Positions 2,733 through 29,715 of a DNA stretch of 30,081 nucleotides are shown piece after piece. A program made the translations under genes and the position numbers. Origin of the DNA: a virus; IMG/VR virus record IMGVR_UViG_3300031525_000574, positions 1 to 30,081 of that record, one strand, 5' to 3'. The stretch's first letter is position 1; each line of letters opens with the position of its first letter. The notes under the pieces were generated by a model. The model was not told the origin of the DNA. It did not search any database and was given only the letters and a program-made list of their open reading frames with translations.

Positions 2733-2735
2733 TCC

Positions 2736-3180: not shown

Positions 3181-3189
3181 ATAGCAAGT

Positions 3190-3698: not shown

Positions 3699-3756
3699 CA
3701 GCAAAACAGAGCGGGCGAGCGGGAGACGGGGCGAGCGGGCGAAACACCCGAGTGTC

Positions 3757-7416: not shown

Positions 7417-7436
7417 TACACCGGAACACGACGCCC

Positions 7437-8503: not shown

Positions 8504-8530
8504 GTCGGAAGCACTCGGCAGCCGAGCGCT

Positions 8531-8734
8531 TCATAGCGGCAACGGGAGCACGCGGCGCCGGTCGACGTGCTCGTGTGTAAGCGTCAGAGACGACACCGCT
8601 AGCTTGAGGTCCCGAATCACCCGCATCTGATGAGTAAGAATGTGTTCCGCTTGCGAGCGTGCCTCCGGCGGATTCACTATCCAGAGAGCCGGGCTATGCC
8701 AATCTTCCAGATGGCGGACGTAAACACCGATCAC
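8531..8734 (-). CDS. Possible C-terminal part of a disrupted minus-strand gene
   Basis: 67 residues from GTG 8734, but the frame is open upstream to about 8822 and the extra residues look coding (LWQPGKLISIPQRTFPVIGV). No good start codon with a ribosome site is visible there. The protein ends in ...SLTLTHEHVDRRRVLPLPL. The segment L-W-x-P-G resembles the C-terminal end of the 29-residue peptide encoded at 10233-10322 (LDPERLLWVPG), and the DNA around both is similar, so the methyltransferase block may have separated the two parts of one gene. Function is not recognised. Confidence 0.35.
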   Translation of the reverse strand: MIGVYVRHLEDWHSPALWIVNPPEARSQAEHILTHQMRVIRDLKLAVSSLTLTHEHVDRRRVLPLPL

Positions 8735-8840
8735 GGGAAACGTCCGCTGCGGGATGGAAATCAGCTTCCCGGGTTGCCATAAGGAGCCGGTAAATGTGCA
8801 GCTTTCGCCGCCGCGCTTCTGTTAAACGCTCGACCATCTT

Positions 8841-9035
8841 TTGCGCTTGTACCGCGAGTATGAGCTACGGATGGGAGGATTCAATCACAAGCCGTACAAC
8901 CTGGGCTGGGGACATCATCACTGCAATGTCGTGGTTAAAGATTCCGGCATCCTACGGACGCTTGCGTGGATGGAGGAAGTGATACAAAGGAATGTCGAAG
9001 GCGGTCACTTACCGACAGCGAATAAGGGCAGTTGA
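8841..9035 (+). CDS. Small hypothetical protein, possibly frameshifted at its 5' end
   Basis: The plus-strand frame is open from 8826 to 9035 and gives about 65-70 residues that look like real protein (LRLYREYELRMGGFNHKPYN, then GWGHHHCNVVVKDSGILRTL and WMEEVIQRN). The only start is TTG 8841 with no ribosome site. A good site (AAGGAG, 7 nt before ATG 8794) lies upstream but in another frame, so a one-base indel may have split the gene. The His-rich GWGHHHC stretch could bind metal. It overlaps the 3' end of the methyltransferase gene on the opposite strand by 31 nt. Family not recognised. Confidence 0.4.
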   Translation: MRLYREYELRMGGFNHKPYNLGWGHHHCNVVVKDSGILRTLAWMEEVIQRNVEGGHLPTANKGS

Positions 9036-10147: not shown

Positions 10148-10178
10148 TGGCCCTCCTTTCACTGGCTTCAATACATGA

Positions 10179-10208
10179 TACATAAAGTCATCATAGCCGT
10201 GGTGTCAA
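10179..10208 (-). promoter_or_regulatory. Sigma70-like promoter for the methyltransferase gene
   Basis: On the minus strand a perfect -35 box TTGACA (10203-10208) is followed after 17-18 nt by a weak -10 box (TTATGT or TATGTA at 10179-10185). Transcription would start near 10172, between the ATG at 10183 and the TTG start at 10147 with its AGGAGG. Confidence 0.5.
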
Positions 10209-10232
10209 GCGTGGCAGCAATCGGGCAAAAGG

Positions 10233-10322
10233 CTAAGTGCATTCCCCGGGCACCCACAGGAGCCTTTCCGGGTCCAGGGCAGCGGCGGCGAGACAGGCGA
10301 ACAACGCGCGGCGACTCATCAT
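10233..10322 (-). CDS. 29-residue peptide with twin-arginine-like N-terminus
   Basis: The start ATG at 10322 overlaps the stop of the preceding minus-strand gene as ATGA, which implies translational coupling. The peptide begins M-M-S-R-R-A-L-F followed by a Cys/Ala/Leu-rich stretch and L-D-P-E-R-L-L-W-V-P-G, then stops after E-C-T. I recall the N-terminal arginine pair, short hydrophobic run and DPERLLW-x-PG from longer phage hypothetical proteins, so this may be a truncated member; its lost continuation may be the frame at 8531-8822. Function unknown. Confidence 0.45.
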   Translation of the reverse strand: MMSRRALFACLAAAALDPERLLWVPGECT

Positions 10323-10519
10323 TTCTTCGCCGCCTTCACCTGGGCCTCAGCCTTCAGACGGTCGATCTGCTGCTCGATGCGATCTAATTGATCATTAATG
10401 TGTTGCCGGTCTTTCCGGACCCGCTCGCTGTGCGCGTCGATCTGCCAGCTTGCAACACCCATTAGCACGACGGCCAGCAATCCGACCATAATGGCGAAAG
10501 CGATGTCTCGGCCATTCAT
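10319..10519 (-). CDS. Small membrane protein with coiled coil (i-spanin-like)
   Basis: 66 residues: a short polar N-terminus, one membrane segment at about residues 6-25 (IAFAIMVGLLAVVLMGVASW), then a highly charged heptad-like helix to the end (Ile, Leu and Asp/Glu/Arg/Lys). This layout, one N-terminal anchor and a periplasmic coiled coil, is that of inner-membrane spanins or small phage membrane proteins. It overlaps both neighbours by ATGA, so the three genes from 10752 to 10233 form one coupled minus-strand operon. The spanin label depends on the holin-like gene next to it; no outer-membrane partner was found. Confidence 0.5.
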   Translation of the reverse strand: MNGRDIAFAIMVGLLAVVLMGVASWQIDAHSERVRKDRQHINDQLDRIEQQIDRLKAEAQVKAAKK

Positions 10520-10752
10520 GAGCGACTCTCTTTTGTCCTAAACATGGAATAGCCGAACAGCATGACGCCGAGCACAAGCAAACCGTACCCGATCCAGGTC
10601 ATATGACCGACGAACCAGTGCGCAAAGACAGTTATGGCTTTATCGTAAGCCTGGATGATTAGGAGTTCCGCCCCGAGAATCACGCTCATGGCGGCGCACC
10701 ACCCGATGCCAAAGCGGCCGATGTCGGACTTCACATCACAAGCATAACCCAT
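10516..10752 (-). CDS. Small two-helix membrane protein (holin-like)
   Basis: 78 residues from ATG 10752, whose ATGGGT is the reverse complement of box A of the R repeat at 10747-10840. Two hydrophobic segments, about residues 18-38 (WCAAMSVILGAELLIIQ) and 50-70 (WIGYGLLVLGVMLFGYSMF), are followed by a short basic tail, as in class II holins. The next gene overlaps its stop by ATGA and encodes a spanin-like protein. An upstream in-frame start would lie inside the R repeat and the tail-tip leader and is less likely. A holin role in timed lysis is plausible; a membrane protein of other function is possible. Confidence 0.5.
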   Translation of the reverse strand: MGYACDVKSDIGRFGIGWCAAMSVILGAELLIIQAYDKAITVFAHWFVGHMTWIGYGLLVLGVMLFGYSMFRTKESRS

Positions 10753-10840
10753 CTCTACCAACAGAATCCGACCGACAGACAAACGGTCTCCAGTTCCCCG
10801 ATAACATCGCGCGATTGAACGCGCATCGAAGCCACAAAAG
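10747..10840 (+). repeat. R repeat copy, plus orientation, leader of the tail-tip gene
   Basis: It runs from ACCCATCTCTACCAACAG through CGCGCGATTGAACGCGC to ATCGAAGCCACAAAAG, touching ATG 10842. The middle box (GCGCTGAAGAGCC in others) is diverged. Its distal end contains the start codon of the minus-strand holin-like gene. Confidence 0.75.
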
Positions 10841-10841
10841 C

Positions 10842-13800: not shown

Positions 13801-16800
13801 ACCGCTGGAAACAGGAGATCCACGGCGGGATCTGGGGCGGACAGGTCAATGCTGTCACAACCGGGCAACTCACTTTCACTGGCGGCAATTTCGGCAGCTC
13901 GGGCTGGAACGGCCGTATCGTGAGCCTGATCGCCAATCCAGCGGGATCGCTGACGAACATCCCGTTGCAGGACTTTCTGGTCACATCCACGAGCGGCAAC
14001 ATCCTGACCGTCACGCCGGATCCGCTCGCCGCGGGCGTAGCGGTTGGCGCCGTCTTCGTGATGCGATGCGCGGCGACCACTTATACTTCGACTACCATCG
14101 GGGATTCGGGGTTCGTCAATGGCTTCTCGACCGGTCTCACTCCCGGCAAAGAAGTCGGCAATCAGGTGCGGGTCATCGGCAATTTCGGGAATGCAGCGAC
14201 CAATCAGACCCGCACCATCGTCGCAAATACCGCGACGGTGTTTACGCTGGATACGCCGTTCGACGTCACCCCGACGGCGGGCTCGATTTTCGTGGTGCTC
14301 CAAGCCGCTTGGCAAGGAAGCTTCGATGTGCCGTACACTTCCGCGACCACGGCGCCCAGCCCGGTACCGGCAATTGCATCGCTCATCGTCACCAATTTCA
14401 AGGGCACGACCATCTTCATCGAGGCGATGACTATGGACGCCTCCGGCAACACCGCGCTCGAATACTTTTCGCCCTGGCGCGAACTGTACGTCTGGGGCTC
14501 GGCGGGCACGGGCGGCGGCGTGCTGGCGGTGCTCGGCATTACCGCCGCGTTCGGCTTGGGCAACGTCGGCACGGCCTATACCGGTTCCTTCGTGGCGACG
14601 GGCGGCCTCAAGCCTTACACATACGCCATCACCAGCGGGTCGCTGCCGCCTGGCCTGAGCCTCAACACCGGGACGGTACCCGCGACGGCCGCAAATGCCG
14701 GGCAGGTAACCGGCACCCCCACAACGGCCGGCACAACTCCGTACGTGTGCGTGGTAACCGATTCGGCAGCTAACACGGCCACGACCACCGGCTCGATCAC
14801 CATCCTGCCCACCGGAGTCGGCCCGTTCACCGACGTGGTTACCGGTCTGATTCTGACGGTCGCCTTCCGTGCCAGCGGAAATCAGGGCGGCTACCAATTC
14901 GAAGTCCAGGGCAAATTCACGCCTCCCACGGATTCGGCCTATGCATATTCGATCGCTGGCCTGTTCGTGGTCGGTGCGTCGGGAACGCCTGGCACCGCGG
15001 CCAACCCCGGCGGACCACTGGCGGCCAACGTCGCGCCGGCAATCAGCAGTTGGACCGGGCCGTGGTACGACGTGCCCGCGGCCTCCACGCAATACATGGT
15101 GTACGTCTGGTGCATCAACATCAACGGACTCCAGTCCACGCTGAACACCAACACGTCCGCATCGCCGATCACCATCTCGATCGCTATCGCGCAGGCGTAC
15201 GTGAACGGCGGCGCTACGGTGGTGGGCGCGGAGATCCCGAACTGCACGCTATCGAACGTCAACATCGCGTACAACCTCGGCAACACCGCGGACGGAATCG
15301 AAGGCTACAACGTGATCGGGACCGGCACGACGCCGACAGACCCGCGCTTCGCCGGCGCCGAATTGTTCCTGTGCCCTATCGCCGAATTGATGGGCTACAA
15401 CGGCACGGTGGACGCGGTCATTCCGGCGATTTCGACCGCCTCGCCCACCGCCTTCAATATTCTCGTTTCTCCGTTCGGCATTACGACGGGCGGCACGTGT
15501 ACGGTAGCTTCCGACGGCGTCACCGTTACGAGTATCACGGCAACGATTGCCGCGGGGCTGGCCAATAATTTCGTCGCAATCGGCACGGTCATTTATCAGG
15601 TCCAGACGTATGTCAGTTCCAGCTCCGTGGTTCTAATCGCAGGCTCCGGATGTCCTCAAGGGACTGGCCTCGTCTTCCAGTCGCTCGAATGCCGATACAC
15701 TTTCGCGGTTGGAGACACCGTACAGATTGCGAATGAGCGTTTCACGCTGACCACGTATTCGCAAACTTGCACGTTTGCTTCCGGCAGCCCCTATCCCGTG
15801 TATTCGACATGGACGCTGACGACCATCGTCGGCCAAACCGCGGCGACACACACAACCGGCGTGGGCCAGCTCATCGTGGATGTGCTCAGCCCGGCCGGCA
15901 ATGTGGATCTTTACGGCGGAAGCCTGGCGCCCGGCTCCACCCAATCCGTGAGCGATGATTATGACATCGGTGCGCCCACGGCTTATATCGCCTATATGGT
16001 CAGCCTCTCGACGTTGGGCCTTTACAATACATGGCCCGTCGCGGGCATCACGCCATCCTTCATTATCGGCGCCGTGGAAGTGCAGACCACCGGCAACCTG
16101 CAAGCCTCGCGCCTGACGCCCACGCAATTCGACGGAACCATGGCAGTCGTCAACGGCCGACTCAGTTCGCTCGTGCCGACCGGCAGCAACATGTGTGTGA
16201 ACGGCAATTTCATGGCCGGCTACAACGCGGGCACCACGTGCCCGAAGGGCTGGACATGGGCCGGCGCCCCAAACACTATATCGGTTACCTCCGGCGTCGA
16301 ATTGGTGCCCGGCCAGCCCAGCGGGTATATCACCGGAAACGGCCAGCTTTCGAGCACCAATCAGCCCTGCTTTATTGGATCGCAGTACGGCATCCAGATG
16401 TGGTTCGATACCGGCTCCTCGCCCAACGGCACCTATGTCTTGCAGATTGCGTTTCTAAGCGCGGCCGGCGCCTACGTCAGCGACGGCGGCGCCGCCGTCA
16501 CCGGCAATCTCTCGTCGTTCAGCGGCGGCTGGGCAAGACTCCCTTCGACAACAAACACGCTGTTGGTTGGCACCGCGCCGGCCGGGGCCGCGCAGATGCA
16601 AGTCAATCTGGGCATCACCGGGATGACCAGCGGCTTTCTGTGCATCGCCAATTGCACCCTGCAGCTTCTCACCCCCGGCGCTGGCGTGCAGACGGCGGGC
16701 CCGGTGGGCGTCGATGCGAACAATAATCTCAACATCCTCGCTGCTTCGATCCAGAACGTGCATCTTGCGGCGGCGGCCGTTGCATCCTCGAATATTCAGG

Positions 16801-17468
16801 TCGCGGCTGTTACGGCGTCTCTGCTCGCCTCCGGCGCGGCGGCGTCCAACGTCAATCTGGTGGCTGGAAGTCTGCTGGTTCAAACCATCGGCGCGGGCAC
16901 GCTGGGCGTCGGGGTGGTCTATGCGGGCACGATCAATGTCTCGCAGATCAATGCGGGCACATTAGCCGTGGGCGTGATCTATGCCGGATCGATTGCGGCA
17001 AGCCAGGTCACGGCTGGAACACTCAGCGGGGTGAATTTAAGCATCAACAATTCTGGCGTCATTGTTGAAGTGCAGGTGCAATCGTTCCTCAGTAATACGG
17101 TCGGCCTACTGATCGAGGCCAATGTTCTCGGTTCGGAAAAACCAGTGTTTATATATCCTGGAGCAGTTAGCGTCGCCTCAACCGCGAGTGGCACCGGAGC
17201 AACCGCCGTGATGTATATCGACAGCAACGGCGGCCACCTTCAATTAGTAGACAGCAATGGTCATTATGGAGTGACGATAAACACTGGTGCGGTAACCGGT
17301 GAAGACGGCATCGATATTTTTGATGCCGGCAGCGGCGCGGCGCTGACAATTCTGACGGGCAGCGGCATCGTACAAATTACCAATCTTCCCACTACCAGCC
17401 CGGGCAGCGGCACCAAGAGACTTTGGTACGACCCTACGGACAGCAATCGCGTCAAATTCGCCTCTTAG
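10842..17468 (+). CDS. Tail tip / host specificity protein, gpL- and gpJ-like in one chain
   Basis: 2208 residues from ATG 10842, chosen over an earlier in-frame ATG (10815) because the latter lies inside the R repeat. The first 300 residues look like the gpL type: a beta-rich part and then a Cys-rich region at about 170-255 (RCPWVF, WWFCGYDP, GPCERG, ACDYTKSGTYGC), comparable to the Fe-S or metal-binding Cys set of lambda gpL. The middle carries the tail hub and central fibre region. Residues about 1226-1325 form a putative Ig (He_PIG-like) domain (TYAITSGSLPPGLSL, then VTGTPTTAGTTPY). Residues about 1965-2070 are repeats of AGTL-x-VGV-x-YAG-x-I-x-x-SQ, probably a trimeric stalk. It reaches the tube end and recognises the host. 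The L-J fusion is inferred. Confidence 0.82.
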   Translation: MALSGTVAQNKDTKPLGYRPVILIQLQFLDGTYLYLSTMPLNPNEGGYVYNGNNYLARIVSENFSVTQARSADGIDRIPAITLKLADPDYFLWLSYEMQHGFCGAIMTASLILMDISSTTGAYIYTSDSPMQFIGICDPPNRENDGATMTLSAQSSHNMGKVYQPYVQVQQRCPWVFPVGPTQRLTGGTDPSSNWWFCGYDPDQPGTDPELNGPCERGNTTTANLVIDGTTVTDANGVYIACDYTKSGTYGCVAHGMYTADSLGRQTGRFGGEQWAPTTLESRSKSYTTGKQVTVFSATNQSIYTDRFPMLYGTQWVIPPIVINELGDANSTRGEATICMGNIGTYGILQVVLNSIIVPRNNAGNPLGPGASPTDPLQRWNFTGGGTFGYCYGSRNGAPTDDAGFNDSNGVPQGDPHGSHATIEWVVYSELLQSTSLPSMMILASGPQIWVWGTPTTKALQFSVSPAWAVMDLLIHSNWTFPELDIQSFITAAQIAFVNVSYINNTGQTAIHQRYMCAMVVHQRRTAQEVIQMTLRCFNAQLVPNSSSGLLQLIVRQTLGDQQPAPITGSNFNTLIQSIPGNASQTLVNTYEAGGSTGYSGYVAWMFDESSIYRPQTASGDAPPRLRVYSTPNLQRPNEVTFPFQDQDNSYVQDSLTLDDEEAINRAGGYNGAVLNTETYQVLGISNFDQAIRIANVYLAEQNHGNPEGDARGTYFFELESTVRIEHLRVGQIVLMQNQSLGMNGATPLQSPPGTSIPGFLCRVISTAPTTDFERSVCQLAWHEDIWYTDVFGQAPAPFYSAQARGIPARPPFAWSPYGQQPLAGDAMWPSTDWGFGISQSYTINADGSALCTVTIYGCPPVNKFATVLAPPLLPVQGTTSPTGGTISGGQSIYLMLAGIDVSGFYTPLSQPCLVNVPAGTNTNTISIPSIYWPAGTTGWVCYGGLDQQRFCEQSSGTGDSITSLQINSLNVSTYGAPDPLAASMYYRWKQEIHGGIWGGQVNAVTTGQLTFTGGNFGSSGWNGRIVSLIANPAGSLTNIPLQDFLVTSTSGNILTVTPDPLAAGVAVGAVFVMRCAATTYTSTTIGDSGFVNGFSTGLTPGKEVGNQVRVIGNFGNAATNQTRTIVANTATVFTLDTPFDVTPTAGSIFVVLQAAWQGSFDVPYTSATTAPSPVPAIASLIVTNFKGTTIFIEAMTMDASGNTALEYFSPWRELYVWGSAGTGGGVLAVLGITAAFGLGNVGTAYTGSFVATGGLKPYTYAITSGSLPPGLSLNTGTVPATAANAGQVTGTPTTAGTTPYVCVVTDSAANTATTTGSITILPTGVGPFTDVVTGLILTVAFRASGNQGGYQFEVQGKFTPPTDSAYAYSIAGLFVVGASGTPGTAANPGGPLAANVAPAISSWTGPWYDVPAASTQYMVYVWCININGLQSTLNTNTSASPITISIAIAQAYVNGGATVVGAEIPNCTLSNVNIAYNLGNTADGIEGYNVIGTGTTPTDPRFAGAELFLCPIAELMGYNGTVDAVIPAISTASPTAFNILVSPFGITTGGTCTVASDGVTVTSITATIAAGLANNFVAIGTVIYQVQTYVSSSSVVLIAGSGCPQGTGLVFQSLECRYTFAVGDTVQIANERFTLTTYSQTCTFASGSPYPVYSTWTLTTIVGQTAATHTTGVGQLIVDVLSPAGNVDLYGGSLAPGSTQSVSDDYDIGAPTAYIAYMVSLSTLGLYNTWPVAGITPSFIIGAVEVQTTGNLQASRLTPTQFDGTMAVVNGRLSSLVPTGSNMCVNGNFMAGYNAGTTCPKGWTWAGAPNTISVTSGVELVPGQPSGYITGNGQLSSTNQPCFIGSQYGIQMWFDTGSSPNGTYVLQIAFLSAAGAYVSDGGAAVTGNLSSFSGGWARLPSTTNTLLVGTAPAGAAQMQVNLGITGMTSGFLCIANCTLQLLTPGAGVQTAGPVGVDANNNLNILAASIQNVHLAAAAVASSNIQVAAVTASLLASGAAASNVNLVAGSLLVQTIGAGTLGVGVVYAGTINVSQINAGTLAVGVIYAGSIAASQVTAGTLSGVNLSINNSGVIVEVQVQSFLSNTVGLLIEANVLGSEKPVFIYPGAVSVASTASGTGATAVMYIDSNGGHLQLVDSNGHYGVTINTGAVTGEDGIDIFDAGSGAALTILTGSGIVQITNLPTTSPGSGTKRLWYDPTDSNRVKFAS

Positions 17469-17863
17469 TTCGATACCGTGAACGCCTTTGAATCGAACGC
17501 CTTCAATTGCTCAACGAGCACCGAAACCACAACCGCTTCTGGAGAAGGCAATGGCACGAGCGCCACGGCGTTGTAGTATGAGCCCACGCCGCCGCTGTTC
17601 GGCGAGATCGCCGTCGATGTGAACGTGGAACCGTTGAACGTATATTTTACGAACACGCTGAAGGCTATCGTATCCACAGCTCCGCCGCTGATCCAGATCT
17701 GATAGAGCCCGCCGGTCATCCCCGAATATCCCATCACGGCGGCCGGCACTTTCACGGCGTAGATATCCAATTGGGCCGCTGGAGCGGTCGCGATAATCGG
17801 TATCGCCGAACTGGCATGAAGCCAGACGGCAACAACGGCGGCCGTGGCGAAGCGTTTGAACAT
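17465..17863 (-). CDS. Secreted small hypothetical protein
   Basis: 132 residues from ATG 17863, preceded on the minus strand by a perfect AGGAGG seven nt upstream, so this is a real gene although it opposes the operon. A Sec signal peptide spans about residues 1-20 (F-K-R-F, then Ala/Val-rich, ending A-S-S-A). The mature domain is beta-rich with Gly/Ser/Thr and few charges (LYQIWISGG, SVFVKYTFNGSTF). Its stop overlaps that of the tail-tip gene by 4 nt. It starts 44 nt from the plus-strand gene at 17908, making a divergent pair. A cell-surface role is possible; I do not recognise the family. Confidence 0.65.
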   Translation of the reverse strand: MFKRFATAAVVAVWLHASSAIPIIATAPAAQLDIYAVKVPAAVMGYSGMTGGLYQIWISGGAVDTIAFSVFVKYTFNGSTFTSTAISPNSGGVGSYYNAVALVPLPSPEAVVVSVLVEQLKAFDSKAFTVSN

Positions 17864-17907: not shown

Positions 17908-18150
17908 ATGAAAAAGCTATACACCTTCGATGACAAAGAAGTTGCCTTCCTCAAACCGGTCCGCGATGCCCTGGCGCAGAATCAGATCGAATTGAAACGG
18001 CGTTTGAAGAATATCGCCGAGATCAATGGCCTGAGCGGCGAATTAACGGAAGCCCCCGATTCGAGCGGCTTTCTCGCGCCCAATACGGAAGCTCCCGCTA
18101 TTCCGCCAGATCCACGCGGCACCCAGACATTCGACGCAACGGCGCTATAA
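17908..18150 (+). CDS. Small hypothetical protein
   Basis: 80 residues. The N-terminal half is a charged helix (DKEVAFLKPVRDALAQNQIE, then KRRLKNIAEING) and the C-terminal half is Pro/Ala-rich and ends G-T-Q-T-F-D-A-T-A-L. The last 30 nt and the following bases belong to a direct repeat that recurs at 18305-18360, where a G-T-Q-V-L-G-A-T-A-L tail is encoded. The gene sits right after the tail tip gene and 3 nt before the next ATG; it might be a small tail accessory protein. No clear ribosome binding site. Confidence 0.5.
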   Translation: MKKLYTFDDKEVAFLKPVRDALAQNQIELKRRLKNIAEINGLSGELTEAPDSSGFLAPNTEAPAIPPDPRGTQTFDATAL

Positions 18151-18173
18151 GCCATGTGGCTATACAGCCAAAC
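18118..18173 (+). repeat. Direct repeat, copy 1
   Basis: About 56 nt beginning GGCACCCAG and including GGCG-T-TATAAGCCATGTGG-like bases; similar to 18305-18360 with roughly ten differences. It spans the end of one gene and the first codons (MWLYSQ) of the next. Confidence 0.75.
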
Positions 18174-18354
18174 GACGACCGGCCCCTTCAACGCGGGCAC
18201 CATCGCATCCAGTATTATCTATGCCGGGTCGATCGCGGCGACCCAGATCACAGGAGGCACCATCGGGGTAGCCATCGTGCTGACGGCTCCCACGATTGTT
18301 ACGAGGCACCCAGGTACTCGGCGCAACGGCGTTATAAGCCATGTGGATATATAG
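18154..18354 (+). pseudogene. Mosaic ORF: DUF2778 N-terminus joined to tail-tip stalk repeat
   Basis: 66 residues. The first six (MWLYSQ) equal the start of the DUF2778 gene at 18341 (MWIYSQ). The next part, about residues 12-38 (NAGTIASSIIYAGSIAATQI), matches the stalk repeat near residues 2030-2060 of the tail-tip protein at both protein and DNA level. The last 25 residues are a shifted reading of the second direct repeat copy. It therefore looks like a recombination product rather than a designed gene, although the ATG and frame could still be translated. It overlaps the start of the DUF2778 gene. Confidence 0.5.
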
Positions 18355-18360
18355 CCAGAG
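18305..18360 (+). repeat. Direct repeat, copy 2
   Basis: Second copy of the unit at 18118-18173, spanning the same functional junction: a TATAAGCC stop region followed by ATGTGG of the DUF2778 gene. The 131 nt between copies holds the tail-tip-like fragment. Confidence 0.75.
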
Positions 18361-18709
18361 CAGTGGGCATTTGCGGGACCCTCACGACCGATTGCTGTGC
18401 GCCGCCGGCTATTCAGGCTCGGGGTTCGACAAGAACCAGCCGGCGGACGAGGGAATCGTAAACCTTGGACCCATCCCGCAAGGCGACTGGCGCATCGGCG
18501 AAGCGCAGGACGACGCGCGGCTGGGGCCTGTCGTTATGGCGTTAACGCCCATGAAAGGGACGGATGCGCTGGGACGATCGGGGTTTTACATCCATGGAGA
18601 TAATGCTGAACATTTAGGGCAATCGAGTCATGGATGCGTGATTCTGCCAAGGTCAATACGTGCTTTGATGGCCGTGAGTGAGGATCGAACTTTACGGGTT
18701 GAACTATAA
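18341..18709 (+). CDS. L,D-transpeptidase-like DUF2778 (Tlde1-type) peptidoglycan enzyme
   Basis: 122 residues. It shows the full DUF2778 pattern: W-x-Y-S-Q-S-S-G-x-L at 2-11, GYSGSGFDKNQP at 23-34, GPIPQGDWRIG at 43-53, then GRSGFYIHGDN at 78-88 and SSHGCVILP at 95-103. His85 and Cys99 are the expected catalytic pair; related type VI effectors such as Tlde1 act on the peptide stem of peptidoglycan as L,D-carboxypeptidase or exchange transpeptidase. There is no signal peptide, so it would act after holin release or from the virion. Its place behind the tail tip gene fits either a lysis enzyme or a tail-associated cell wall enzyme. The family is clear; the role is inferred. Confidence 0.8.
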   Translation: MWIYSQSSGHLRDPHDRLLCAAGYSGSGFDKNQPADEGIVNLGPIPQGDWRIGEAQDDARLGPVVMALTPMKGTDALGRSGFYIHGDNAEHLGQSSHGCVILPRSIRALMAVSEDRTLRVEL

Positions 18710-18710
18710 G

Positions 18711-18803
18711 TCTCTTGGGGCTTCGTCGCGTTCTGTCGCCCACTTACACGGCATGGCTCTTCAGCGGTTGCTTCCCATTCGAGTTCTTGCGGGCGTTGAT
18801 GGT
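18711..18803 (-). repeat. R repeat copy, minus orientation, after the DUF2778 gene
   Basis: It starts at the stop region (TCTCTTGGGGCTTCGTCGCG) and includes ACGGCATGGCTCTTCAGCGG, the reverse of the middle box. The box A end is diverged. Confidence 0.75.
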
Positions 18804-18829
18804 AGACTTTCTTTAGTGGAGCTATTAGT

Positions 18830-19162
18830 ATGAAGCACATTGGACCGTTTGGACCGTCTTTCGTAGTGAGCTTCAGTTTGTTGATGGGTCTCGCCGTTGG
18901 CCTTCAATCGCAAGCGCCTAAGGCCGCCGCCCCCGCGCCACCCGCCGCCGTTGTCGCGTCCCCATCGAAGCCGGTATCGGACGCGGACCGCGCGGACATC
19001 CGTGAGATGCAGATGCACATCAAGGATTTGCAGCGAGCGTTGCAAGACGCTCAGCAGGCCATGATCGCCAAGATCAGTGCAATCACGCCCAAAGGGTATC
19101 AGTTGCAGGAGACCCAGCAGGGTAAGTTGGAATTCGTCGCGATGCCCGAAGAGAAAAAGTGA
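18830..19162 (+). CDS. Small secreted or membrane-anchored coiled-coil protein
   Basis: 110 residues. The N-terminus has a hydrophobic run at about residues 8-26 (signal peptide or anchor), a Pro/Ala-rich linker (about 29-50), then a helical, coiled-coil-like part (about 53-85: DADRADIREMQMHIKDLQRA and on) and a short tail. GTGGAGC lies about 9 nt before the ATG. This is the plus-strand member of a cargo block between R copies; the minus-strand gene at 19168-19344 converges on it with a 5 nt gap. The layout could suit a spanin-like or periplasmic spacer protein. Not assigned to a family. Confidence 0.55.
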   Translation: MKHIGPFGPSFVVSFSLLMGLAVGLQSQAPKAAAPAPPAAVVASPSKPVSDADRADIREMQMHIKDLQRALQDAQQAMIAKISAITPKGYQLQETQQGKLEFVAMPEEKK

Positions 19163-19167
19163 GCGAT

Positions 19168-19344
19168 TTAATTGCTTGGCCTGATCCGGGTGACCGCCTT
19201 GGCGGGCAATACCGCGCGCCGGGAAAGATGAAAGTCGCGCACCTCTCGCCAACTCATGCCGGGATTGAGACGCTGCCAGAGCGGAAGCGGGTCATCGAAC
19301 ACTGACGGCTCTTGCGGATCTTTCTTGAGCCACTTGACCAGCAT
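19168..19344 (-). CDS. Small minus-strand cargo gene, 58 residues
   Basis: Starts at ATG 19344, with GGTGAG directly upstream, and encodes MLVKWLKKDPQEPSVFDDPL followed by LWQRLNPGMSWREVRDFHL and a basic end. The sequence is balanced, with aromatic residues and Pro placed as in a folded small protein, while the other frames are interrupted. It begins about 17 nt inside the box A end of the R copy at 19361-19450 and runs away from the plus-strand gene at 19453. Function unknown. Confidence 0.5.
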   Translation of the reverse strand: MLVKWLKKDPQEPSVFDDPLPLWQRLNPGMSWREVRDFHLSRRAVLPAKAVTRIRPSN

Positions 19345-19360
19345 CTCACCAGCATTCTAG

Positions 19361-19450
19361 CCCATCTCTACCAGCAACATCATCACAACAAGTGAATTGC
19401 TGAAGAGCCATCAGAACATCGCGCGATTGACCCGCATCGAAGCCCCAAAA
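19361..19450 (+). repeat. R repeat copy, plus orientation
   Basis: CCCATCTCTACCAGCAAC, TTGCTGAAGAGCCATCAG, CGCGCGATTGACCCGC, then ATCGAAGCCCCAAAAG touching the ATG at 19453. Confidence 0.85.
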
Positions 19451-19452
19451 GA

Positions 19453-19737
19453 ATGAAGCCGATTTTTGTAGTGACGGCTCTGGGAGCTATGGCCATGTAT
19501 TTGGTCAGTGTGCTCATCTTCTGCGCCTGGAAATTGCCTTCTCAAACAGTAGTACTTCTCTTCATCTCGAATACCGCAACGGGCCTGCTGAGCGCGCTGT
19601 ACACCTATTTGAGATTGGAAGACGGCGTACCTGTTCCGCCGGGAAGCATCTCGACAACTACGGTCCAATCCACGCAGAAAGTAGAATCGCCAGCATTGCC
19701 CGCAGTGCAACCCATCTCTACGCAAAAAGCCGACTGA
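19453..19737 (+). CDS. Small two-helix membrane protein (holin-like)
   Basis: 94 residues. Two hydrophobic segments, about residues 4-25 (FVVTALGAMAMYLVSVLIFC) and 31-53 (TVVLLFISNTATGLLSALYTY), are followed by a Ser/Thr/Pro-rich tail. The layout fits a holin or another small phage membrane protein. The C-terminal residues P-I-S-T-Q-K-A-D and the stop codon are encoded by the box A end of the R repeat at 19710-19802, so the repeat has been taken into the gene. The start is ATG 19453 directly after an R copy, with no clear ribosome site. Confidence 0.55.
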   Translation: MKPIFVVTALGAMAMYLVSVLIFCAWKLPSQTVVLLFISNTATGLLSALYTYLRLEDGVPVPPGSISTTTVQSTQKVESPALPAVQPISTQKAD

Positions 19738-19802
19738 CAGCATAGGTCTCGCTCAGTCATCAGTGATCGCGAGCGACAGAACGCCGCGAAGCTCACAAAC
19801 AA
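19710..19802 (+). repeat. R repeat copy, plus orientation, overlapping the end of the upstream gene
   Basis: ACCCATCTCTACGCAAAAAG begins inside the coding region at 19710; the copy continues through CGACTGACAGC to CGCCGCGAAGCTCACAAAC. This copy ends about 45 nt before the next ATG, which has its own ribosome site. Confidence 0.75.
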
Positions 19803-20351: not shown

Positions 20352-21593
20352 ATGACCAGTGCAGAGCGGATGAGGAAATATCGAGCGGAGCACCCAGAAT
20401 ATGCTGAACACATGCGGCGGTGGCGCGAAGAGAACAAAGATCGCGTCGCCGCCCAACGGCATGAATACTACGAACAAAATCGCGAACAAGCGCTGGCTCA
20501 ATCGCGCGAGCGGCAGAAGGAAAAATGGGATCGGATTTTATTACTGAAGCGCGTCAATAATGCCAATCAGCGATACCCAGGAGTATTGACGCTCGATCAA
20601 TTCGAAACACTGATCGACAAAAGCCAGCGTACTTGCTGCTGGTGTGGAAAAACGAATCTCCAAGGGCGAGATCTCACGCTGGAACATGTGCGTCCAACGA
20701 ATGCCATTGAAGATTTGGCAATCGCCTGCCTTTCCTGCAATGCGACGAGACGCACGATGGGGCTCAATCCCCAATCTGAACAGGCACGGTTGCGCAATCG
20801 ACAGAACCGCGAGCGACGCTTCGCGGCATCGACAGCGGCCCAGCGAGAACTCTCCCGAATCAAAAGTCTGATCGGACACATGCGCCATCGTTATCCAGGC
20901 GCGATCACCGCGGAGGATTATCGGAACATCGTCGCCGCCGCCGAAGGGAAATGCTATTGGTGCGACAGACCGGTCGAAGGCGCAGCCATCACCATCGAGC
21001 ACTTGAAACCCATCAACGACCCGCAATTCATGGTGGTCGCCTGCCGCTCCTGCAATGCGCGGAAACTCGCGGGCGGGCGCCGCACGTCCGTCGAGGTGCG
21101 AGCCCATCGCGAGCAGTTACGCACGCTGCCGACTCCCATGACGGAGGCCGAGCGCGCGGTAAGTAAAATCGAGGTGCTAAAGGCATGGCGTGCCCGTAAC
21201 CCTGACCGGTCTAAAGAAGACTCCCGTAAATTCCGAGAAGCAAATCGCGAGCTTGTAAACGCGCGGTCCGCGCAATGGAAACTGGATCATGCGGATCAGG
21301 TCGCTGAATACAAACGCAAGCATCGGGCCGAGAATCCGGGACAGGGAACAGCGCAGTATCGCGCGTGGCGCGCCGCACATCCCGAACATGCCCGCGAAAC
21401 CAAGCGCGCGTGGAACGAAGCGAATCCCGACAAGGTCAAGGCGATGAAGGCGGCCTCGTACCAGCGGAACAAAGCGCGCCGCGATACGCCCGAGAACCGT
21501 GAGAAGCGAGCCGCCGCGTTGCTCAAATATCGCGAAGCCCACAGAGAAGAGCTTGCCGCTCGCCCCAGGGCGCGCCGGGCGGCGGCAGGATAA
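20352..21593 (+). CDS. HNH endonuclease-like protein with two HNH domains
   Basis: 413 residues. Two zinc-finger HNH cores are present: residues 95-131 (C-C-W-C-G-K, then LTLEH-V-R-P at 108-114 and C-L-S-C-N at 126-130) and residues 201-235 (C-Y-W-C-D, ITIEH-L-K-P at 213-220, C-R-S-C-N). Both have E-H instead of a leading H-H pair and share a third motif S-C-N-A. Around them are arginine-rich helical repeats with W-R-x-x-N-P-D/E and Y-R-x-x-H/N-P units (about 8-60 and 275-400), which probably bind DNA. Such genes are common as homing or intron-less endonucleases in phages. Domain duplication within one chain is unusual. A promoter just upstream makes it independent of the structural operon. 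Confidence 0.78.
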   Translation: MTSAERMRKYRAEHPEYAEHMRRWREENKDRVAAQRHEYYEQNREQALAQSRERQKEKWDRILLLKRVNNANQRYPGVLTLDQFETLIDKSQRTCCWCGKTNLQGRDLTLEHVRPTNAIEDLAIACLSCNATRRTMGLNPQSEQARLRNRQNRERRFAASTAAQRELSRIKSLIGHMRHRYPGAITAEDYRNIVAAAEGKCYWCDRPVEGAAITIEHLKPINDPQFMVVACRSCNARKLAGGRRTSVEVRAHREQLRTLPTPMTEAERAVSKIEVLKAWRARNPDRSKEDSRKFREANRELVNARSAQWKLDHADQVAEYKRKHRAENPGQGTAQYRAWRAAHPEHARETKRAWNEANPDKVKAMKAASYQRNKARRDTPENREKRAAALLKYREAHREELAARPRARRAAAG

Positions 21594-21916: not shown

Positions 21917-22227
21917 CCGAGCACAGCGCCATCCTGATGGATGGCATTCAATGCGGCAGCCTCCAAAAATGTCCGCATTGCGGTGGGCACTTTTTGCTTG
22001 CGGCATCTGGCCATCTATCCGACGCCCGCAAGGTCATGGGGAATGCCGCGCACCCGCGCGTCTTCTGTCAGAAGTGCGGACGGCTCACGTGCGGACGCCC
22101 GCAGTGCGATCCAATCATAGCCTGTATTCCAATGGAAGCTCAATTGGAACATGCAGAAGGAAAACGAACAAGGTACGATGATTTGATTGTTGAGGTGAAA
22201 TATAACAGGGGGCTACCAATACTCTGA
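21913..22227 (+). CDS. Small zinc-ribbon protein
   Basis: 104 residues from ATG 21913, overlapping the stop of the preceding gene as ATGA. Pattern: C-P-H-C-G-G-H-F at about 20-27, then F-C-Q-K-C-G-R-L-T-C-G and a further C (C-D-P) near 52-65: two C-x2-C pairs of a treble-clef or zinc ribbon. The order DG-x-QCG, CxHCGGHF, FCxKCGxLTCGxPxCDP is one I recall from small phage hypothetical proteins, where the function is unknown. The C-terminus ends at the R repeat beginning at 22228. The longer frame from 21796 would overlap the upstream gene and is rejected. Confidence 0.6.
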   Translation: MTEHSAILMDGIQCGSLQKCPHCGGHFLLAASGHLSDARKVMGNAAHPRVFCQKCGRLTCGRPQCDPIIACIPMEAQLEHAEGKRTRYDDLIVEVKYNRGLPIL

Positions 22228-22308
22228 ATAGCCTTTTGTGGCTTCGATGCGTTCTGCTTCTCAGTTACGCGGCGCGGCTGGGTGTCAGTCAGCTTCTTGC
22301 GTAGAGAG
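22226..22308 (-). repeat. R repeat copy, minus orientation, after the zinc-ribbon gene
   Basis: It begins at the stop codon region (AATAGCCTTTTGTGGCTTCG) and ends near GCTTCTTGCGTAGAGAGG. The string AATAGCCTTTT recurs at the other end of this intergenic region (22549-22559), just before ATG 22560. Confidence 0.75.
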
Positions 22309-22310
22309 GT

Positions 22311-22438
22311 GGAGAGCCCGCCGGCGTTGTGCCGGTAATTTGCACTGATCTCGTTTGCCTCTTCATCGACTTCTCTCGTTGCTGCCTAAACACATGGCTA
22401 CCGGGCATCCTCCCCGGCTGAGGTTTAACGGGCTCTCC
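22311..22438 (+). ncRNA. Candidate structured RNA inside an R(minus)-R(plus) pair
   Basis: A perfect 10 bp stem, GGAGAGCCCG (22311-22320) with CGGGCTCTCC (22429-22438), closes 108 nt. Inside are a hairpin CCGGC-GTTGT-GCCGG (22321-22335) and a hairpin CCGGG with CCCGG (22401-22417, 7 nt loop), both GC-rich, giving a multi-branch shape on either strand. No convincing ORF with a start codon fills this segment. Which strand is transcribed is not clear. It could also be the remnant of a mobile element with hairpins. Covariation in related phages would decide. Confidence 0.4.
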
Positions 22439-22454
22439 CAATTAAGCTCAGTGT

Positions 22455-22545
22455 ACCCTATCTCTACGTAAGAACTCCACCGACCGCACGCCGCCGCGCA
22501 GCCACCCCGTGTGACGCGCGACTGACCCGCATCGAAGCCCCGAAC
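22455..22545 (+). repeat. R repeat copy, plus orientation
   Basis: ACCCTATCTCTACGTAAG, CGCGCGACTGACCCGC, ATCGAAGCCCCGAAC. It ends 14 nt before ATG 22560, with AATAGCCTTTT between. Confidence 0.8.
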
Positions 22546-22559
22546 ACAAATAGCCTTTT

Positions 22560-23657
22560 ATGGGAGTTAACTATTTTGCAGGCGCGGAGACCGGTGATCT
22601 TTCCGAGCTCGCCGCTACTACGGGATCGGTATCGGCGTACGCCGGCATCAATGTGCATGCTCCCGGCGTTTATAGCTATCTGATCAACGGGTTGAGCATG
22701 TCGTCTGGAATCACGTTCACCACGGGTTTGAACGCCCCTGCTTCCTATTTACGCTTTTGGTTGAATATTAGCGCCGTACCTTCCCCGTCCGCACTCTCGC
22801 TCGTCCAGGTTCGCGATTCCACCGAAACGCTGCTAGGCCGAATCACGCTGAGCGTTCTGGGTCAATTGCAGGCGCTGGCCGCCGGCGGCACGATGTCCCC
22901 GGGCACCATGATCCTCGCCTATAACGTCTGGTATCTGATCGAGTGCAAATTCGTGACAGGGACCGGCGCTAACGCAATTATGGAAGTTCGCGTGGGCGGG
23001 GCGGTGCAGGCGTCCTGCTCGAACGGCACGGCCGTCACGAACGCCGATAATTGGACCGTCGGGGCCGGGTCCAATATGTTTTCGCTCGTGGACGACGTTC
23101 TCATTCGCAACGATCAATATCCGGGCGACGGCCGTTGCCTCGCGCGTCAGGGAACCTCCGGCGCGCCTACCTATACCGCCTGGACCGAGGTCGGCGGCTT
23201 TATCTATGTAGTCTGGTCGAACACTCCATACAACGCCACGCAGTATGCGGTAGCGACGGCCGCCAACCAGAACCAGAGCATGTTGATCGCCGCGTTTACC
23301 CCCGGCGGCATCGGACCGATCGATACGATCAATGCCGTCAAGGTCGGGGCCGTGGGCAATCTGGCTTCGGCTGGCGGCACCAATCAGACGTTACTCATGA
23401 GGTTCAACGGCGTGAATCAATCGTCGGGTGGCCTGGGACTTACCACCGCGACCGCCTACACCGAATTTTACCCGGCAACATTGCCGACCGTCGCGCAATT
23501 GAACTCGTGCCAGGGCGGCGCGATGCAAGGGACCAGTACTAATTTTCTGCAAATAGACGACTTGTGGGTGATGGCTGACTTCACGCCAGTATGGTTCGAT
23601 GAGATGCCGACCAACAACCCAATCTTTGAAGGTATTGGAATCACCTCTTACGGATAA
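22560..23657 (+). CDS. Lectin-like (concanavalin-type) phage structural protein
   Basis: 365 residues. The N-terminal half (about 1-195) has the alternating strand pattern of a concanavalin/laminin-G jelly roll: YFAGAETGDLSEL, YLRFWLNISAVP, VQVRDSTETLLGRITLSVLG, WYLIECKFVTG and DDVLIRNDQYPGDGR. The last is a frequent signature in phage adhesins that bind carbohydrate. The C-terminal half (about 200-365) is a second beta-rich domain ending in a conserved-looking W-F-D-E-M-P motif. There is no signal peptide. It may be part of the tail tip or a head decoration, as such lectin-like genes occur in both places. Start ATG 22560 is 14 nt after an R copy, without a clear ribosome site. Confidence 0.65.
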   Translation: MGVNYFAGAETGDLSELAATTGSVSAYAGINVHAPGVYSYLINGLSMSSGITFTTGLNAPASYLRFWLNISAVPSPSALSLVQVRDSTETLLGRITLSVLGQLQALAAGGTMSPGTMILAYNVWYLIECKFVTGTGANAIMEVRVGGAVQASCSNGTAVTNADNWTVGAGSNMFSLVDDVLIRNDQYPGDGRCLARQGTSGAPTYTAWTEVGGFIYVVWSNTPYNATQYAVATAANQNQSMLIAAFTPGGIGPIDTINAVKVGAVGNLASAGGTNQTLLMRFNGVNQSSGGLGLTTATAYTEFYPATLPTVAQLNSCQGGAMQGTSTNFLQIDDLWVMADFTPVWFDEMPTNNPIFEGIGITSYG

Positions 23658-23659
23658 GT

Positions 23660-23750
23660 ATTTTGGGGCTTCGTCGCGTTCAGGCGCTCGCTAATCCGGC
23701 ATGGCTTTTGAGCGCTTCGGTGTCATTCGGCTTTTTGCGTAGAGATGGGT
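23660..23750 (-). repeat. R repeat copy, minus orientation, after the lectin-like gene
   Basis: Near-consensus copy: TTTTGGGGCTTCGTCGCG, CGGCATGGCTTTTGAGCGCT, GTGTCATTCGGC, GCGTAGAGATGGGT. It starts two bases after the TAA stop. Confidence 0.85.
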
Positions 23751-23915
23751 GACGCCGGACCGTTCTCGGCACGATCAGCCTGCCCCATCAGCGCCAAGGC
23801 TATTCGTCGGGCATCCTCGGGAAACACCGTGACATCGACGTTCCCGAAAGCCATAAATTACCTTTCCGGTGTCCGGGTCTCCCTCGATGCGAATCTCGTC
23901 AAGATCGAAGCGCAT
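23723..23915 (-). pseudogene. Minus-strand cargo gene split by an apparent frameshift
   Basis: From ATG 23915 (after GGGAAGGA) a frame encodes MRFDLDEIRIEGDPDTGKVI and YGFRE and runs to 23775 with less protein-like sequence after that. From about 23854 a second frame encodes NVDVTVFPEDARRIALALMG and QADRAENGPASP and ends at 23723 in I-S-T-Q-K-A-E. Joining the two by a one-base change gives a continuous, plausible protein of about 65 residues (GFR followed by NVDVTVF). The C-terminus lies in the box A end of the R copy 23660-23750. Either a sequence error, a true pseudogene or two overlapping genes is possible. Function unknown. Confidence 0.45.
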
Positions 23916-23941
23916 TCCTTCCCATTTCCACTAACAGCGTA

Positions 23942-24032
23942 ACCCATCTCTACCAGCGGAATCCAACCGACCGCCAAGCCTCACTCAATCATGCCGTATA
24001 ACGCGCGATTGACAGCGCATCGAAGCTCACAA
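23942..24032 (+). repeat. R repeat copy, plus orientation, leader of the first fibre-like gene
   Basis: ACCCATCTCTACCAGCGG, ATCATGCCGTATAACGCGCG, ATTGACAGCGCATCGAAGC, ending TCACAAA directly before ATG 24034. Confidence 0.85.
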
Positions 24033-24033
24033 A

Positions 24034-27000
24034 ATGAAGCCCCTCATTCTATTTCTCTTGATTGGCTGTAGTGTGGCAATGGCCCAATATGCTCCCTCGG
24101 CTTCCGGATCAAGCATTGCGGCGGCGGAAATGAACAGCAAAGTGGCGCAGCAAACGGGATTCGGCGCTCCCAGCGGACTGAATTGCACGGCGGGAAAAGA
24201 TTTATACACGAACCTCAGTAATGGCGCTTTGTATGACTGCATCACGACGGGCACTCCGGGCACATGGCAGGCCGTGGTCGCAAGCTCGGGAGCCAACACC
24301 GCGCTGAGCAATCTGGTATCACCGCAAGTAAATGCGTCCATTGGGGCCGCCACAACGCTTTCGATTGGAACCGCGGCCAATCCCTTTCTTGCCCTGTATT
24401 TATATCCCAATGGCAGCTACGGAACGTATGATGCCCTTATCAATACGACCTGCGCTCACGCACCGTGCACATGGACGATACCAGATTCCGCTGCCGATAC
24501 GTTTATCGGGCAGAACACCACCATCGCCCTAGCAAACAAAACTCTCACGGCGCCGGTCATCAACGGCACGGTGACCGGGAGCGGTGTGTGGAACGCCTCC
24601 GCCCTGGTCGCCGCTTACGTGCCGGCAATTGCCAGTTTGACGAATTATCCACTGACAACCGCCGGCGATTTATTCCTCGGCGGGGCTTCCGGCGCAGCCG
24701 CGCGGCTCGCTTCGACAGGTTATAGCGTCCTCGGATCGGGAGCCACTAATCCGTCCTGGATCACGCCGACGGCCAACGCGCAATGCTTCATGTCCGGCGC
24801 ATCCAGCTATGCGACAACCACGCCTTCGTTTCAGGCGTGTCCCAGCGGCGGCGGAAATCTAAGCAGCAGCGGTTCCCCGGCACAATACCAAATAGGCGTA
24901 TTTGCCAGTTCCTCGACGGTCACCGGAATAGCGCCAAGCGCCACGAGCGGCGTAGCGCTGATCTCTCAAGGATCATCGGCTAATCCGGCCTTCGGAGCGA
25001 TCAATCTTGCAGGCGGCTCCAGTATCGTTACCGGCGTGCTGCCGGCGGGAAACATTGCCGCCGCGCTATCGAGCAGCACCAGCGTGAATGGCACGACCAT
25101 CCCCGCGTCCCAGACGCTGCTGTATACCGGCGGGGCTTTGGGAACGCCATCGAGCGGCACGCTGACGAACGCTACCGGTTATCCGAGCGCCAGCCTGTCT
25201 GGCGCCGTGCCTCGTTCGCTGGGCGGCTTGAATTCCACGAGTGCCGGGACGGGCATTCTGCGCGACAGTACGACTCCCGCCGCATCGGAGATCAGCGGCG
25301 ATTGCACCACTTCGGGCAGCAACGCGATCATTTGCACGAAGGCCAACAGCGTGGCGTTTGGCGGAGGCGCCACGGCCACCTACGCCACCAATCCGCAGAT
25401 CGCTACGTACCAGGTCCTAGCAGGAGATTTCACCAATCTGAAGACCATCCTGGTTGCCAGTGGGACATTCACTATCACGTTGGTGGCGAGTGGCGCTCAG
25501 CCACCGGCGGGGCAGTATATCACCATTCTCAACTACGGCTCGGGAGTGGTGACCATCGCACGGTCGGGCCAGAACGTCAACGGAGGAACCGCCAGCGTGA
25601 CGCTTCCGGCATCTTCTGCAGCGGCGCCCACGCAGGCTTTCGTAATCTCCGACGGGACAAACTATTTCGGCAATCTAACGGTCGGCCCCGCGGTGACCAC
25701 GCTAGCCAGCCTAACGTCCGTCAACGGCACGAGTATACCTAGCGCGGCTACTTTACTGGTCAATGGTGGCGCGTTGGGCACGCCATCGAGCGGCACGGCT
25801 ACGAATCTTACCGGCCTCCCCTTGTCCACTGGGGTAACCGGGACCTTGCAGGCCGCTCAGATGCCAGCGCTCACCGGGGATGTGACGAATACAGCCGGCA
25901 GTCTTGCCACAACCGTCGGGGCCATCGGCGGCAAAACGGTGTCGCTAAGCGGAAGTTTGACAACGACCGGTGCCTTCAATCCCATATTTGCGATTCCCTC
26001 TTCATCGACCTGGACATTCCCAAGTGGCGGCGGCACGCTCGGGCTCCTGAATGCGAACACCACCGGGACAGCGGCGAACGTCACCGGCACGGTGGCGATC
26101 GCCAACGGCGGCACGAACGCCACCAGTTCGGCGGCCGGAACCATCCCGAACGCCACCAGCGGCAGCGCCTCATCCTGGACCGCTACGCCTACGTTGGGCG
26201 CGGCGGGCACGCTCGGGTCTCTGACTATGGGCAATGCGACGAGCGGCCTGCTCACTCTGGAACCCGTCACCGGGGCACTCGGAACGGTCACCGTGAGCAT
26301 CCCGGCGGCCACGGATACCCTGGTCAATCTCGCCGGAACGCAAACGCTCACGGGTAAGAGCATTGCAGCGACCGAAGTGAACAGCGGCACCCTGGCGTGC
26401 GGTCAACTACCGGCCTTGACGGGCGATACGACCACCACCGCCGGATCGTGCGCGGCTACAACGGCCAAGATCAACGGCACAGCATTTACCGGAACCAACG
26501 GGCATCTCGTATCTTTCGGCGCTTCCAACATTCCCGCCGATTCGGGCGTCGTGGCGGCGAACGCGGTTACCGCGTCATCGCCTGGCGTGGGATTGTGCCA
26601 TTTCGCCGGATCAACGCAAGTCTGCACGAGTTCTCTGGTGGCGTTGGCGTCCGACGTCAGCGGCACCCTGGCGGCGGCACAGGAGCCTGCGCATACCGGT
26701 GATGCAACAAACTCCGCGGGCTCCCTGGCAATGACGGTTGGCGCCATTGGCGGCAAGACGGTTTCGCTTTCCGGAAATTTGACAACGACCGGCGCGTTCA
26801 ATCCGACGTTCGCTATTCCATCGTCGAGCACCTGGACACTCCCCTCCGGCGGCGGCACACTCGGGCTGCTGAATGCGAATACCACCGGAACCGCCGCGAA
26901 CGTCACCGGCACGGTGGCGATCGCCAACGGCGGAACGAATGCAATCACTGCAGCGGCGGCGCTGATCAGTTTATTGCCGGCTGGCACGAGAGTCGGAGAT

Positions 27001-29265: not shown

Positions 29266-29715
29266 TCACGTTGACGGTGGGTTAGCGGCGTGGCCGCCTG
29301 GGCGACCCTGGTTTTCAATGTACGCTTTGAGAGTTTCGAGAGTGGCTCCGCCAACGGAGCACAGGAAGAACCCGCTGGACCAAAAGGTGCGCGCATGTTT
29401 GCCGTAATAGACGGAGCCGAAGCGGTCCAGAACGGAGGAGGCGCTCTTGCTTTTAAGCGCGCCGATAAAGTCACTGAGTACTACGGTGGGAGGGTACCGT
29501 ACCAGCATGTGGATATGGTCCTGTTCTCCGTTGTAATCAAGGATTTCGGCCTTGTAATTACCGGCGATCTGTTCGATAATGGACTTGATAAAGTCTCGCT
29601 TCTCCGAAGTGAGTGTATGCCTGCGAAACTTCGTACAAAACACGACGTGCACGGCCAAGTGATAAACACAGTGGCTTGCACAGTCAAAATCAAGATTCCC
29701 GATACGCTTGCGCAT
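29266..29715 (-). CDS. tnpA: IS200/IS605 transposase TnpA (Y1 HUH)
   Basis: 149 residues from ATG 29715 (M-R-K-R-I-G-N). The frame is open further to 29913 but those residues are antisense to tnpB and do not look like the family, so the shorter start is preferred. The HUH metal-binding motif is D-H-I-H-M at about 66-70, and the catalytic tyrosine is Tyr132 in L-K-A-Y-I-E-N-Q. Other family features: HLAVHVVFCTKFRR at 19-32 and ALKSKSA. This transposase cuts and joins single-stranded DNA at hairpin ends, without target duplication. The last residues after ENQ are encoded by the left-end hairpin. Length is normal and all key residues are present, so the gene is probably functional. Confidence 0.9.
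   Translation of the reverse strand: MRKRIGNLDFDCASHCVYHLAVHVVFCTKFRRHTLTSEKRDFIKSIIEQIAGNYKAEILDYNGEQDHIHMLVRYPPTVVLSDFIGALKSKSASSVLDRFGSVYYGKHARTFWSSGFFLCSVGGATLETLKAYIENQGRPGGHAANPPST

Follow-up and report, generated by a model that had tools for sequence, protein, structure and literature searches.

The locus at positions 22225–22559 raises the question of what is carried between two inverted repeats in a phage genome. The sequence analyzed (hereafter the window, 30,081 nt in total) is part of an uncultivated tailed phage with tape measure, DUF2460, and hub genes. The original prediction was a structured RNA, carried as cargo in a place where other copies hold protein genes, with an 11-nt direct repeat as a possible target duplication of the whole element. 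Our analysis gave good support to an element that has inverted ends and encloses an interior, while it did not support the reading of this interior as structured-RNA cargo.

Two inverted repeats flank a short interior

The predicted location between inverted repeats was borne out, as two inverted copies of a ~95-nt repeat, named R, flank a 108-nt stretch at 22229–22320 (minus strand) and 22449–22545 (plus strand). Based on alignments, profile searches, and a tree, the left copy is a stop-side end of subtype B, with its outer tip after the TGA of the upstream gene (22225–22227), and the right copy is a start-side end of subtype A, with its tip 15 nt before the ATG at 22560. The perfect 10-bp GC-rich stem described earlier as closing the 108 nt is also present: GGAGAGCCCG (22311–22320, plus strand) pairs perfectly with CGGGCTCTCC (22429–22438, plus strand), and the enclosed interior spans 22321–22428. 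A putative antisense ORF of 50 codons, starting from a TTG, was read from the sequence at 22289–22441 (minus strand). The B end holds its C-terminus (..PPLYARS*), and this layout matches the cargos of sister elements. Consensus scans detected no terminator-like site in 22228–22548 and placed the promoter-like matches outside this element.

The 11-nt repeat AATAGCCTTTT is found on the plus strand of the whole window only at 22227–22237 and 22549–22559. It is therefore present twice, as predicted, with a left copy that starts at 22227 and not at 22226. The B-end tip consensus TTAGCCTTTTG overlaps the left copy, and the right copy adjoins the ATG at 22560.

Other repeats were also observed in the window. 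Direct repeats at 18114–18170 and 18301–18357, near 18.2 kb, are 86% identical over 57 nt, and those at 25834–26133 and 26656–26955, inside a gene for a fiber-like protein of 1236 aa, are 77% identical over 300 nt.

The interior folds no better than shuffled sequences

The minimum free energy of the 108-nt interior was −27.7, compared with −25.9 ± 2.7 for dinucleotide shuffles (z −0.68), 49 of 200 of which were as good. The two GC hairpins that had been noted in it are seen in the predicted fold, but they are ordinary for such a composition. Together with the 10-bp stem, the interior reached a z-score of −3.6 against shuffles, and the complete 321-nt stretch was far more stable than its shuffles (z −5.1). 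The strong folding of the latter is due to the inverted arms and not to an RNA body. In ten pairs from two phages, the pairing energies of cognate arms summed to −767.8 kcal/mol, and those obtained after shuffling the partners summed to −793 ± 39 kcal/mol (p 0.74). Cognate arms are thus no more complementary than non-cognate ones, which argues against a co-evolving RNA stem. An alignment of 30 R copies yielded no consensus structure, with zero predicted pairs.

Rfam covariance models gave no match in the window at the gathering score, and no homologues of 22311–22438 were found, hence no covariation. The perfect, GC-rich closing stem and the better-than-shuffled folding of stem plus interior are what a structured noncoding RNA at 22311–22438 would predict. 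Against this stand the ordinary interior, the equal pairing of non-cognate arms, the lack of an Rfam match, of homologues, and of a fold common to R copies, and the position of the stem just within the inverted arms, of which it can be an inward extension. We consequently regard such an RNA as very improbable. We also considered whether the interior could be a degenerate sister cargo gene and rejected this, as an 11-nt match to the cargo of element E9 (see below) and similar residues seen by eye were insignificant in shuffled alignments.

Copies of the repeat lie at gene borders

Profile searches revealed 16 copies of R (~95–105 nt) in the 30 kb, every one at gene borders. Most form inverted pairs that enclose small ORFs, many of them antisense. 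The tip of minus-oriented copies lies 3–7 nt from a stop codon in all cases (6/6), and a start codon is found 1–37 nt from the tip of plus-oriented copies in nine out of ten, mostly within 1–17 nt. The elements range from 196 bp to >2 kb. Between the paired ends are ORFs of 43–141 aa, mainly antisense to the operon, or almost nothing (7320–7515), and the final codons of cargo ORFs often extend into the B end (PISTQKAE*, LKSHREFVSA*). The cargos of different elements are unrelated to each other, with no ORF in common.

Several sister elements do contain ORFs, in agreement with the protein genes predicted for other copies. Element E1 (1285–1752), between the tail-tube gene and the next gene, is made of a B end, an antisense ORF (MAVIEKQRQ..), and an A end. 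The same arrangement is seen in E2 (2729–3290), whose antisense ORF (MNAELKEV..) terminates within the B end, and in E9 (23658–24034), where the antisense ORF has its C-terminus PISTQKAE* in the B end. E6 (18709–19452) holds a 110-aa plus-strand ORF and a 58-aa antisense ORF between its B and A ends. E4 (7320–7515) is cargo-free and has swapped ends, with the B type on the start side; both of its ends are non-A. Adjoining the tail genes, a protein with a Tlde1/YkuD-type L,D-transpeptidase domain is encoded at 18341–18709 (plus strand).

Several R ends are solo, which means either that incomplete units are common or that single R copies can move. Profile searches detected solo A ends on the plus strand ahead of the tail-tube gene (99–214) and immediately 5′ of the tape-measure gene (3749–3850; ATG at 3849). 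Another solo A end (10739–10841, plus strand) precedes the hub gene and delimits, on the right, a 2.3-kb insert that holds an antisense methyltransferase gene. A solo non-A end (19702–19800, plus strand) is located at the 3′ end of a 94-aa ORF (19453–19737) with the C-terminus QPISTQKAD*. The insert between DUF2460 and the hub (8504–10841) encodes, in antisense, an N6/N4 methyltransferase that contains an internal HTH domain, as well as small antisense ORFs, and has an A-type R at its right border only.

Junctions are empty in relatives

A relative, L091, was retrieved by protein search with the tail-tube protein, and L092 and L093 came from a later alignment. L091 and L092 share with the window the tail tube (52%), the next gene (37–38%), the tape measure, and DUF2460. 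No R was found in these two syntenic relatives. The junction A|B, which holds E1 in the window and measures 464 nt there, is 5 and 10 nt long in L091 and L092. Likewise, the junction T|tape measure is 1 and 2 nt vs >1 kb in the window, and the DUF2460|hub junction is 3 nt in a relative vs 2.3 kb. Insertion between genes that are adjacent in relatives was found for E1, E2, and the 8504–10841 insert. No record found has an empty 22228–22548 junction, and this element is without counterpart in L091 and L092 because the downstream genes differ there.

Inserts of antisense genes that are devoid of R were observed between the tape measure and DUF2460 in L091 (15916–17417) and L092 (15921–18147). The L091 insert is flanked by the direct repeat TAACTTCT, beginning at the upstream stop codon. 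Within the L092 insert, a repeat that begins with TTTCCTCCTACCCCTGTATCGCTGGGGGAGCG is present at 17086–17745 in two copies of 71 nt (94% identical) and a third of 33 nt.

The repeat is shared with a distant phage

Record G003 (53.5 kb) was reached through a locus in it (L103) that matched a degenerate DNA pattern of R. It is the only other R-bearing record found in exact-pattern scans of collections, from which records very close to the window may be absent. Exact DNA patterns of R gave 0 and 82 matches, with no R among them by profile search. The pattern that led to G003 gave 64 matches, one of them being this lead, and bacterial genomes gave one chance match. BLAST searches against reference phages and plasmids returned nothing for R or for the tail-tube, hub, and DUF2460 proteins, and protein searches of viral contigs with 22560–23657, the hub, and DUF2460 gave no matches.

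The G003 phage is distant from that of the window, with 32% identity for the tail tube, 26–30% for the hub, and 18–25% for the tape measure, and almost no DNA similarity between structural genes. It nevertheless has ~15 copies of R, including four clear pairs. These lie at junctions other than those of the window, and the homologous tail junctions in G003 are empty (0–7 nt). When the DNA of the two was compared, 34 of the 38 matches were R to R, including the best 24, with up to 79% identity over 95 nt, a value reached by the R at 19702–19800. Median R identity was about 76% both across phages and within a phage, and no cargo was common to the two. This R-to-R similarity with a distant phage at other junctions indicates that R has moved or been exchanged.

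In G003, the inner ends of two R copies exactly delimit a 676-aa gene (15649–17679). R copies also surround a 210-aa gene, whose start codon follows ..GTAGAGAGGGGGAACGATG / GTAGAGAGGGGGAACG at an R inner end. In the same record (L167; 3047–3132 and 4114–4209), C-terminal codons of plus-strand genes pass through R, and at the R tip the stop codon shares bases with the ATG of the next gene (ATGA).

R copies of the window and G003 interleave in a tree of ~95-nt sequences, from which subtypes A and B were labeled. With these labels assigned partly by eye and the sides by hand, an A end is joined to a non-A end in 9/10 pairs (P 0.03), and 12 of 13 A ends are start-side compared with 6 of 16 non-A ends (Fisher p 0.006).

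The 11-nt repeat and a possible target duplication

That the element is flanked on its two outer sides by an 11-nt direct repeat is more than chance would give (~1e-5 by a rough estimate). Removal of the element and one 11-nt copy gives ..CTCTGA-ATAGCCTTTT-ATGGG. The restored TGA-ATAGCCTTTT-ATG gap of 10 nt is typical of the lineage, and a target duplication is therefore a fair reading here. It should be noted, however, that the left copy overlaps the element tip: of its 11 nt, 7–9 correspond to the consensus tip of the left (B) end, and other B ends also have TAGCCTTTT as their tip (E1: TTAGCCTTTTGGGG). A non-cognate comparison gave a 9-nt match, which we attribute to this common tip. Among ten elements, flanking duplications were 11 nt at 22228–22548, 6 nt at E4 (marginal), and 3–5 nt, at chance level, in the others. 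The predicted target duplication thus fits 22228–22548 and has no parallel above 6 nt in any other element. As a general feature of the elements it was rejected, because a constant length is absent and only 1/10 exceeds 6 nt.

R is not needed for direct repeats to arise at stop/start junctions, since the R-less insert of L091 is flanked by TAACTTCT. Like this insert, Corndog gene 14 has a direct repeat at a stop/start junction without R (PMC4351075).

A cassette family as the best explanation

How morons and other extra genes enter dense phage operons is a long-standing open question, and most of them have been found without recognizable ends. On balance, we favor the view that 22228–22548 belongs to a family of small, mobile, moron-type cassettes in an undescribed group of tailed phages. 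Copies of a repeat family sit at gene junctions, several such junctions are empty in relatives, and R, but not the cargo, is common to the window and a distant phage. The element itself has a short interior with at most a putative antisense ORF of 50 codons and no demonstrable RNA structure.

A cassette would consist of two ends of ~95–105 nt, inverted copies of R that belong to subtypes A and B. The A end would usually mark the 5′ boundary of the cargo gene and adjoin the start codon of the downstream phage gene, and the B end would mark its 3′ boundary, adjoining the upstream phage stop codon. The cargo would vary and could be a large gene, a short ORF (in many cases antisense to the late operon), or nothing. 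The inner ends of R may act as leader or ribosome-binding regions of the cargo. Cassettes would insert into the 0–10-nt gaps between phage genes, so that essential genes would stay intact. They may move as a unit through an enzyme acting on the ends; the best reading is mobilization by a putative enzyme or by recombination. Among the genes scanned in the window and in G003, no transposase, integrase, or recombinase had R ends. An IS200-type Y1 transposase (Pfam Y1_Tnp, E 1e-34) is encoded at the right end of the window (29266–29712, minus strand) and has no R flanks. A 413-aa protein with two HNH/endonuclease VII-like domains, encoded in the same tail region (20352–21593, plus strand), is not tied to R.

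The points against the cassette reading are that none of the scanned enzyme genes has these ends, that only one duplication is clear, that several ends are solo, that cargo is unshared between the two phages, that E4 has two non-A ends, that the A/B labels are partly by eye, and that neither an empty counterpart of the 22228–22548 junction nor a second R-bearing record besides G003 was found. A stronger version, which we put forward tentatively as a possibility short of probable, would be a dedicated phage cassette system, in which A/B ends and a putative specific recombinase would bring arbitrary small genes into stop/start junctions of late operons and allow their exchange between distant phages.

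The strongest rival is homologous exchange at R. Here, R would be a recombination linker, that is, a boundary sequence retained as modules are exchanged or added by homologous recombination between co-infecting phages; there would be no dedicated enzyme, and inverted pairs would result from repeated exchange. That R is the only DNA common to the window and G003, with equal identity across and within phages, and that many copies are solo agree with such a role, which was proposed for lambdoid boundary sequences (PMC3029335). However, the first arrival of R at junctions that are 1–10 nt in relatives and the joining of the two subtypes as A plus non-A are both left unexplained, and we judge this explanation rather unlikely. 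A regulatory role is weaker than the linker, because the positions of R are not conserved. In this case R would be a start-associated sequence, similar to SAS/ESAS, for the initiation of transcription or translation, and a minus- and a plus-oriented copy would be inverted halves of one site. The start-side location of A-type R (12/13), the tips that lie 1–5 nt from start codons without a Shine-Dalgarno sequence, and the existence of ESAS, which are inverted repeats with a variable spacer adjoining starts (PMC3203893), all speak for it. Nevertheless, relatives express the same genes without R, positions are not common to relatives, R copies equally abut stop codons, spacers with genes reach 2 kb, and R is far more conserved across phages than genes are, which together make this role improbable.

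Alternatively, an intergenic hairpin could couple translation, if its fold brought the upstream stop to the downstream start and thereby allowed ribosomes to reinitiate. Stop and start codons do adjoin both tips, the downstream genes are without Shine-Dalgarno sequences, the corresponding gaps in relatives are 1–10 nt and coupled, and the RNAs of the elements are predicted to fold strongly. Yet the arms do not co-evolve, and some elements have kilobase cargo or only one R; we regard this possibility as a minor and very improbable one. The question of how extra genes enter becomes testable with a repeat family that delimits many different inserts on both sides, occurs in two distant phages, and has known empty junctions.

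Comparison with known systems

Morons, in lambdoid and other phages, are extra genes that separate two neighbors of related genomes and in many cases run antisense to the late operon. Classical morons are not known to have long inverted ends in common with other morons of the same or distant phages. R cassettes likewise sit between genes adjacent in relatives, often with antisense cargo, and differ from morons by their common inverted ends. A further resemblance is with Corndog gene 14, inserted at a stop/start junction with a 17-bp direct repeat that is single in relatives (PMC4351075). Its short flanking direct repeat recalls the 11 nt found here and TAACTTCT of L091, but it is without inverted ends.

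The SAS and ESAS of Cluster K mycobacteriophages are 13 and 17 bp long, separated by a 4–13-bp spacer in most sites, and are found at positions conserved across the cluster, at non-structural genes only (PMC3203893). R is similar in that many copies adjoin start codons and in that ESAS are inverted with a variable spacer. In contrast, R is ~100 nt long, lies at stops as well as starts and in the tail operon, and is absent from relatives. Assignment of R to this class was rejected, as neither linkage to starts only nor conservation of position in relatives was found. The terminal inverted repeats, the non-autonomous look, and the one 11-nt flanking duplication are reminiscent of MITEs, but target duplications are not consistent, no parent transposase with the same ends was seen among the genes scanned, and the interiors are non-homologous. 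As with the attC sites of integrons, R is found where small genes of various kinds end, and C-terminal codons extend into it; unlike attC, R has no conserved self-pairing and forms inverted repeats at both ends. An attC-like site was rejected, given that no self-pairing was found in the 30 aligned R copies.

The MPMEs are near-identical units of ~440 bp, all of which have one 123-residue ORF in common and add 6 bp (PMC3029335, PMC4351075). Membership of the R elements among them was rejected, since they have neither a common ORF of ~123 residues nor a near-identical unit of ~440 bp: their ends of ~100 nt are ~76% alike, each copy has a different cargo, and no common ORF was found. MPME1 and MPME2 are nonetheless small tailed-phage elements with terminal inverted repeats and a small ORF (PMC3029335, PMC4351075), and close relatives differ by whether a given site is occupied, with insertion at a gene border in some cases. 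The R cassettes share these traits, and the MPMEs are the nearest described kind.
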